Shown in pieces: positions 3,585-55,797 of a stretch of 64,000 nt of DNA; position 1 is the first letter of the stretch; each line of letters begins with the position of its first letter. Where the stretch lies: the NCBI GenBank assembly GCA_016874755.1, contig VGTH01000013.1, forward strand, positions 1-64,000, in the 5' to 3' direction. The position numbers and the translations under genes were made by a program. The notes under the pieces are model-generated. The model was given only the letters and a program-made list of their open reading frames with translations. It searched no databases and was not told where the DNA came from. The stretch is from Deltaproteobacteria bacterium. Its GTDB lineage: Bacteria > Desulfobacterota > Binatia > UBA9968.

Positions 3585-4082
3585 TTACTTGGCTTTTTTG
3601 TAACTCTCCGGATCGAACGCCTCGCCGTTCAACTTAAACTCCCGCGTCACCGGCGTCGGATTCAGGATTGTCTGCATGATGTAGCAGCCGGCCTCGGCGT
3701 TGCGCATCAGTGCGGCAACGCGGTCGGGCGGTGCGCTCGATGAAATCTCGCTCTTCATCTCGACGCCGACGCCGCCTGATTTGATCGTCTCGCGCAGCAC
3801 CGAGCCCTCGGCTCTGAAACGCGTGGTCACGTAGATCTTCATCTTATCGACTTTCACCTTCATCATTTCCCCGTACCGGGAAACTTGGGTGAGTAGTCAA
3901 AAGGCCACCGATAGGGCGAAGTACCCCATCGGCGATGGTGCCGAATTGTCGCCGCCGGTGCGCGCCTGCTCGTCGCAAAATACCGTAAAGCCACGCACGT
4001 GGCCTTCCTTGCGCATGCGCTCGATGGATTCGGCATCGGCTTCGATCACAATATCTCGACTCACTTGCATCTCGTCTGTCAT
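3585..4082 (-). CDS. OsmC-family protein, probable selenoprotein (TGA = Sec62)
   Basis: Read through one in-frame TGA at 3899-3897, this is a complete 165-residue OsmC/Ohr-family protein, the group of thiol-dependent peroxidases. The N-terminal part has TGGDNSAPSPMGYFALSVAF, then TGA, then LLTQVSRYGEMM in the same frame. In OsmC/Ohr the peroxidatic Cys sits at exactly this position. The second conserved Cys is present at 133 (AEAGCYIMQT). A SECIS-like hairpin with loop GGTACG follows the TGA at the usual bacterial distance. I prefer the ATG at 4082, six bases after GAGGAG; an ATG at 4088 is in frame. The alternative is a recent nonsense mutation (TGC to TGA) giving a pseudogene. Sec-containing OsmC-like proteins have been noted in selenoproteome surveys. 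Confidence 0.75.
3854..3899 (-). promoter_or_regulatory. Putative bacterial SECIS element after the osmC TGA
   Basis: On the minus-strand mRNA the UGA at 3899-3897 is followed by a lower stem UCACC/GGUGA (3892-3888 with 3858-3854), an internal loop, an upper stem UUUCCC/GGGAAA (3883-3878 with 3871-3866) and an apical loop GGUACG (3877-3872). The loop starts 20 bases after the UGA and opens with GG followed by U, as in known bacterial SECIS loops bound by SelB. The stem also codes for protein, as bacterial SECIS elements do. I judged folding by eye only. Confidence 0.6.
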
Positions 4083-4103
4083 TCGCATCTCCTCTTCTGA
4101 AAT

Positions 4104-54963: not shown

Positions 54964-55797
54964 ATGAGCTACACAACCGAAATCTGTACTTTCAGAACTT
55001 CTGATCACGAACGCTTGCATGGTGCGCTCCTAACGCCAAAGGAAAAATCGGACCTGGCGTTGATCTTCGTCCACGGCGTGGCGATGAACTTCTACCTGCC
55101 GCCCATGTTCACCTTCGGCCAAGATCTCGCGACGCGCGGCTATCATAGCTTCGTTATCAATACCCGCGGCCATGATTGGATTTCGCGAGCCGGCAACCTT
55201 ACCAAGTTCGGCGGCTCGGCCTATGAGATGTTGGAGGATTGCGTCGCCGATCTCGACGGCGCCATCGATTTTCTCAAGACGCGCGGCTATCACCGCTTCA
55301 TCTTGATTGGTCACAGTTTAGGCGCGATCAAATCGATCATTTATCAGGGCACCCAACAGCGCAGAGACATCGTCAGCATCGTCTCCTGCTCAGCGCCGAA
55401 GCAGTTTTACTCTGAACGGGTCGAGCGCCAGCCGGTCTTTCGCGAGTTGATCGCCCAGGCAGAACGCATGGTCGACGAAGGCAGCGCCGAAGCGCTCATG
55501 TCGGTCAACGTCGGCGCCACACCGGGCATCTTCACTGCGCGCACGCACTTGAATAAGTACGGCAAGGACGACCGCAACGACTGCCGGCCGCATGCGAAAA
55601 ACGTCGGCTGCCCATTGCTGGCCATCGCCGGCGGCGCCGAGCCGCCGTTTTTTCACGAGTACGCCAAGGAAATCGTCGCTGCCGCGGGTGCAGGATCCAA
55701 ATACGAGTACGTCGGCGGCGCCAACCATTTTTACAATCGTCACACACCGCAAACGGTCAGCGTCATCGCCGCATGGCTCGAACAATTTCCCAAATGA
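54964..55797 (+). CDS. Alpha/beta hydrolase 2
   Basis: A 277-residue paralogue of the preceding hydrolase with the same motifs: LALIFVHGVAMNFYLPPMFT, GHSLGA (Ser118) and GANHFYNRHT with the probable catalytic His. It is a likely tandem duplicate, followed immediately by a repeat and a solute-binding remnant. Confidence 0.85.
   Translation: MSYTTEICTFRTSDHERLHGALLTPKEKSDLALIFVHGVAMNFYLPPMFTFGQDLATRGYHSFVINTRGHDWISRAGNLTKFGGSAYEMLEDCVADLDGAIDFLKTRGYHRFILIGHSLGAIKSIIYQGTQQRRDIVSIVSCSAPKQFYSERVERQPVFRELIAQAERMVDEGSAEALMSVNVGATPGIFTARTHLNKYGKDDRNDCRPHAKNVGCPLLAIAGGAEPPFFHEYAKEIVAAAGAGSKYEYVGGANHFYNRHTPQTVSVIAAWLEQFPK

Follow-up and report, generated by a model that had tools for sequence, protein, structure and literature searches.

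The window (the whole 64,000-nucleotide stretch of DNA analysed here) carries on its minus strand a gene for an OsmC-like protein with a TGA at codon 62. The local gene order is GFA gene, DUF3817 gene, OsmC-like gene, alpha/beta hydrolase. The original prediction described a frame continuous through one TGA, OsmC sequence on both sides of it and an intact second cysteine at position 133, and each of these descriptions was borne out. Read from 4082 to its TAA, the frame has the TGA as its sole interruption; the translation gives PSPMGYFALSVAF upstream of the TGA and LLTQVSRYG downstream, and the Pfam OsmC match spans the codon (residues 44–146, E 1.4e-14). The motif at codon 62, U-L-L-T, fits the published UxxT form. 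Coordinates are collected in Table 1.

Table 1. Features of the OsmC-like gene and its surroundings, in window coordinates
Feature	Position	Strand	Properties and basis
OsmC-like selenoprotein gene	3585..4082	-	165 aa, Sec at 62, stop TAA; Pfam OsmC and NCBIfam NF041052 matches
In-frame TGA, codon 62, UxxT motif, read as selenocysteine	3897..3899	-	Column comparison of 97 pieces
Cys133 codon, likely resolving partner of Sec62	3684..3686	-	Cys in 60/60 Sec pieces that hold the column
Apical stem-loop of SECIS-like hairpin	3865..3884	-	Folding, frozen codons 67–72, covariation in 22 sequences
Hairpin loop GGUACG	3877-3872	-	First loop base is the 20th past the TGA
Purine-rich, putative ribosome-binding-site-like stretch AGAAGAGGAG	4089..4098	-	Six bases before the ATG; read from the sequence

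The gene is an additional member of an already known, NCBI-curated selenoprotein family. Its protein scores 171 bits against the NCBIfam model NF041052 (OsmC_like_Se, OsmC-related (seleno)protein), for which the cut-off is 95, and we found no feature that separates it from this family. All 22 members of our alignment A3 match the same model at E<=0.001. The cut-off is not reached by the TGA-containing paralogue L137 (83.5) or by L132, a Cys copy in the window's own genome (79.1). OsmC-like UxxT selenoproteins were reported as three sequences in the Sargasso Sea survey of 2005 (PMC1088965) and again in the GOS survey of 2008 (PMC2398784), in agreement with the mention of metagenomic surveys in the original prediction; they also appear in the list of a 2022 review (PMC9312934), and a 2026 review describes the family as predicted with high confidence and not experimentally verified (PMC13188914). 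These published proteins share the motif of the window gene and have a predicted bacterial SECIS just downstream. Whereas the entries given in these sources are metagenome sequences or list items, the window gene comes with a genome and its Sec genes. Our literature search found no paper naming Binatota with a selenoprotein, or Candidatus Binatia with a selenoproteome, and one naming Binatota and selenocysteine; NF041052 was named in none of the papers found.

Decoding of codon 62

The window's in-frame TGAs were ranked by two-sided coding potential. Codon 62 exceeds what chance would give, coming first among the 145 that have 40 open codons on each side. A TGA at position 55795 (plus strand) takes second rank and may lie in a chance frame.

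The genome from which the window comes (G000) encodes the machinery for selenocysteine, as the original prediction had supposed for the lineage: selA (E 7.8e-157), selB (E 6.0e-123) and selD (E 4.4e-114) lie together on contig C16, and a tRNA-Sec gene (selC) with anticodon tca scores 75.9 bits (cut-off 47). The selD gene has a TGA of its own, in the motif AAGUAAK, which fits UxxK, the form given for Sec selenophosphate synthetase (PMC13188914). Among 50 related genomes examined, 43 have selB and 46 have selA. Neither selA, selB nor tRNA-Sec was found in searches of G396 and G198, both of which carry the TGA gene; G407, which also carries it, yielded tRNA-Sec and neither selA nor selB; and G403, with TGA-OsmC genes, yielded a partial selA, no selB over cut-off and no tRNA-Sec. 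These four are fragmented assemblies of 210 to 790 contigs, and in several relatives selA and selB adjoin, so that one missing contig could account for part of the absence. G198 is rated 100% complete.

Homologues were collected from the relatives of the genome and from an even sample of the phylum (phylum search, 395 genomes, 36 with a match; relatives search, 77 genomes, 37 with a match); loci were fetched, and identical pieces were merged, leaving 97 unique OsmC pieces that include column 62. By our count, 20 weaker matches, none showing internal stops, are not part of this number. At column 62 there are 62 TGA codons, 34 TGC or TGT codons and one CTG, the last in a frameshifted copy. The check proposed for close homologues thus came out in favour of selenocysteine: Cys stands at the position in all 34 TGC/TGT pieces, and Trp in no homologue. 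The relatives first found in genome contigs had TGA at this codon in seven cases out of seven.

The hairpin was predicted as a two-part structure with loop GGUACG. It folds as described and at the distance described (−15.5 kcal/mol, z −2.22; matched in stability by 6 of 200 shuffled sequences). Of its two parts only the upper stem-loop proved general; a lower stem is present in the sponge-family orthologues inspected and in a few others, and is missing in many relatives. A stem-loop inside the coding sequence just past the UGA, with G in a small apical loop, has the features given for bacterial SECIS elements (PMC1088965). No Rfam SECIS family matched it up to E 10.

Conservation of the upper stem-loop was assessed in three ways. 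Firstly, in 29 orthologues (the set remaining after broken, partial or divergent copies were dropped), sequences that share a residue at codons 67–72 always share its codon as well (identity 1.00), against a mean of 0.51 for the other 140 columns, one of which (codon 78) also reaches 1.00; the best three six-codon windows begin at codons 67, 68 and 69. Secondly, when codons were randomised synonymously, each of the 62 Sec pieces folded more stably than the average of its randomised versions (mean z −1.60; 17/62 with p<0.05), compared with a mean z of +0.07 for the 34 Cys pieces (3/34 with p<0.05), the pieces being related and the tests therefore not independent. The window's own hairpin is marginal by this measure (p 0.068). 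L029, the Cys copy of the window's genome, is more stable than its randomised versions (p 0.025). Thirdly, in 22 sequences hand-picked to span the subfamilies (L137 not included), 84.7% of cells pair in the stem, and covariation scores 0.479, where shuffled controls give 0.182 (sd 0.030) and slid controls at most 0.196. Two of five covariation measures were not above shuffles, namely pairs changed on both sides (5 versus 4.6) and pair types (10 versus 10.6). RNAalifold returned the same seven-pair stem.

Selection was measured as dN/dS by NG86, in which dS was often saturated. Downstream of the TGA, comparison with the nearest copy, L098, gives 0.13 and with seven others 0.19–0.40; none of the eight values is neutral. 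For seven partners a ratio was obtained on either side of the TGA, and each time the downstream value was the larger. Constraint is thus clear downstream but less strong than upstream.

We put the probability that UGA62 is decoded as selenocysteine at about 0.95, on the grounds of the sel genes, the alternation of TGA and Cys at the column, the frozen hairpin codons, the covarying stem and the purifying selection after the TGA. The original interpretation is largely upheld: the three findings that it named as fatal to it (a genome lacking sel genes, a hairpin not conserved in relatives, near-neutral dN/dS downstream of the TGA) were each looked for, and none was seen. An ordinary nonsense mutation or sequencing error, by which a Cys OsmC gene was broken through a TGC-to-TGA change and is now decaying, would need a single base change, and the family does contain broken copies (L098 and L099 with an extra TAG; L100, L087 and L136 frameshifted or split). 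It is nevertheless very improbable, given that the same codon is TGA in 62 unique pieces from many genera, that the genome holds a complete Sec machinery and that selection persists downstream; the frozen hairpin codons weigh against it too, as the original prediction argued of the hairpin. We attach as little credence to a pair of products, an N-terminal fragment of 61 residues and a second one of 93 that starts anew at the ATG at 3866 (ORF 3866-3585): an in-frame ATG does open an ORF close after the TGA, but the split would cut the central helix 51–74 of the predicted fold and part two redox residues that are conserved together. Least probable of all is decoding as Trp or Cys through a changed code or plain read-through, which would explain a frame open with TGA as sense but not the Cys in homologues, the conserved hairpin, the Sec genes or the normal use of TGA as a stop, which closes 15 of the 32 long non-overlapping ATG-ORFs in the window.

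Homologues, gene copies and neighbours

Sec and Cys have been exchanged at codon 62 within the family. A tree built from 57 Sec rows and 30 Cys rows (L100, L087, L101, L102, L106, L136, L133 and short pieces left out) has three changes of label, a number forced by well-supported branches, with bootstrap not fully settled. The window's own genome has a Cys paralogue (G000:C37:42227-42616, L029/L132), grouped with L127–L131; this Cys group is nested in Sec branches and reads best as a Sec-to-Cys change. Another TGA OsmC relative, L137 (G411:C42), groups with a Cys protein outside the main Sec clade, a placement that suggests a separate exchange. Viral contigs scanned with alignment A3 yielded no relative.

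Some Sec pieces (20/62; loci L109, L111–L114 and L116–L126) have UxxS instead of UxxT. The three examples that were scored in their correct frame (L109, L114 and L125) exceed the NF041052 cut-off, so that by sequence UxxS would be at most a sub-form of that family. In the OsmC entries of PMC1088965, PMC2398784, PMC9312934 and PMC13188914 the form given is UxxT, and UxxS is not among them. Four Sec-OsmC copies each were found in G403, G415 and G418, some of them partial or tandem.

Downstream of the gene, and on the same strand, a thioredoxin protein with a WCxPC motif is encoded at 23 of the 34 loci of the window's UxxT group that had enough DNA, one locus with too little downstream DNA having been skipped; grouping by BLAST also gave 23 loci. 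The downstream examples combine thioredoxin with TPR, and we take them to be CnoX/YbbN-like. At the locus of the window copy this neighbour is absent.

In G396, a genome of the same genus, at L071, an AI-2E-type transporter gene is followed by the Sec-OsmC gene, an AhpD-like gene and a thioredoxin gene. The window's genome has the transporter, AhpD-like and thioredoxin-TPR genes at L138 (G000:C31), where the ancestral Sec-OsmC slot is empty; a tblastn search of the slot for an OsmC remnant found none (best E 2.1). A thioredoxin-like frame with one in-frame TAG lies near the thioredoxin-TPR locus (L139, G000:C31:38140-38493). In G395 the ancestral copy, L073, is intact, and the counterpart of the window copy, L098 (G395:C90), has the same GFA and DUF3817 context and 90% protein identity and carries a TAG. 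Judging from these two genomes, a selenoprotein gene appears to have been duplicated, with the window genome retaining one copy and G395 the other.

L098 is one of several copies with an extra TAG, a frameshift or a split frame, the others being L099 (G400:C189), L100 (G405:C302), L087/L101 (G404:C179) and L136 (G035:C18). They look like duplicates of Sec-OsmC genes in the course of decay. For the TAGs in L098 and L099, both near full length, and in the pieces L100 and L102, recoding as pyrrolysine or as some other second recoded codon was considered and set aside. The TAG of L098 replaces Glu and that of L099 falls at a residue that is Glu in its relatives, at a different place. L098 also has Gly where Arg69 is otherwise usual, and L100 carries a frameshift. 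We read these as copies that are probably decaying and not as recoded genes.

Fold, redox positions and possible function

The protein was modelled by AlphaFold2 (pLDDT 89.9) with residue 62, entered as Cys, within helix 51–74 and residue 133 at a helix break. PDB matches are headed by OsmC-fold chains (2onf, E 4.3e-11 and Z 14.9; 1lql, Z 15.5). The closest solved relative by sequence is the Cys OsmC-like protein Jann_2040 (PDB 3cje; E 4.1e-13 with A1 and 3.9e-18 with A3), which has Cys at both 62 and 133, as against Sec62 in the window protein, and which by structure aligned over 92 residues only (Z 9.6). Sec62 and Cys133 occupy both conserved redox positions of the Ohr/OsmC thiol peroxidases, with which the window protein shares the fold, a reactive residue in the central helix and a second Cys near the C terminus.

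One difference lies at the column of Ohr's catalytic Glu. The catalytic triad of XfOhr is Cys61, Arg19 and Glu51 (PMC5962072), which places the Glu ten residues before the reactive Cys. Assuming no gap in between, each of the 61 Sec pieces that reach this column has Leu or Met there (Met52 in the window protein), and the 34 Cys pieces likewise have residues other than Glu. In the N-terminal loop, the region of the catalytic Arg, basic residues near 22–30 shift between subfamilies, and none of them could be matched to that Arg. The claim that Sec62 replaces a peroxidatic Cys thus stands as to the column, which is that of the reactive Cys; the word peroxidatic holds by position only, since the Ohr Glu is replaced by Leu or Met.

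Bacterial Sec insertion proceeds through SelB with Sec-tRNA bound to a hairpin after the UGA. By this route SelB and Sec-tRNA would bind the hairpin just after UGA62, and the ribosome would insert Sec where the reactive Cys of the OsmC fold otherwise stands, on the central helix. Sec62 would then most likely cycle with Cys133 through a selenenyl-sulfide bond, reducing peroxide or a similar oxidant, and would be re-reduced by a thioredoxin-type donor. Peroxide would be the likeliest substrate of such a Sec62–Cys133 cycle, though unproven, and we regard the chance that peroxide reduction is the main activity as about even.

It is also quite possible, at somewhat under even odds, that the product is a selenoprotein but no peroxidase, acting as a YhfA-like selenol/thiol oxidoreductase on another sulfur or oxidised substrate. 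The Leu or Met at the Ohr Glu column agrees with this, as does the lack of Glu in the Cys pieces, and the peroxiredoxin models for Ohr and for OsmC gave no hit to the window protein (P0001) at E<=0.001. In addition, the OsmC-like Sec family is filed under COG1765/YhfA in the list of PMC9312934, and YhfA is named in PMC4069020 as a subfamily excepted from the OsmC/Ohr peroxidases. On the other side, both redox positions are retained (Sec or Cys at 62, Cys at 133). A selenol needs less activation by Arg and Glu than a thiol, which keeps peroxide reduction plausible.

A wider picture can be drawn tentatively, and we consider it possible but rather doubtful as a whole. The Sec-OsmC family in this order would have expanded into a handful of redox proteins that use selenium, some UxxT and some UxxS, one form of which is accompanied by thioredoxin-TPR and often by an AhpD-like protein; they would serve a selenium-based pathway that does without the Ohr Glu and is mechanistically unlike the Ohr/OsmC peroxidases, and the window copy would be a relocated duplicate that has outlived the ancestral copy.

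The window gene links the predicted OsmC-like selenoprotein family to a genome that holds its Sec genes, and the thioredoxin-TPR gene linked to its orthologues suggests an electron donor. The Sec and Cys paralogues of the same genome, and the losses of different duplicates within one genus, offer natural pairs for asking when selenocysteine is kept and when it is exchanged.
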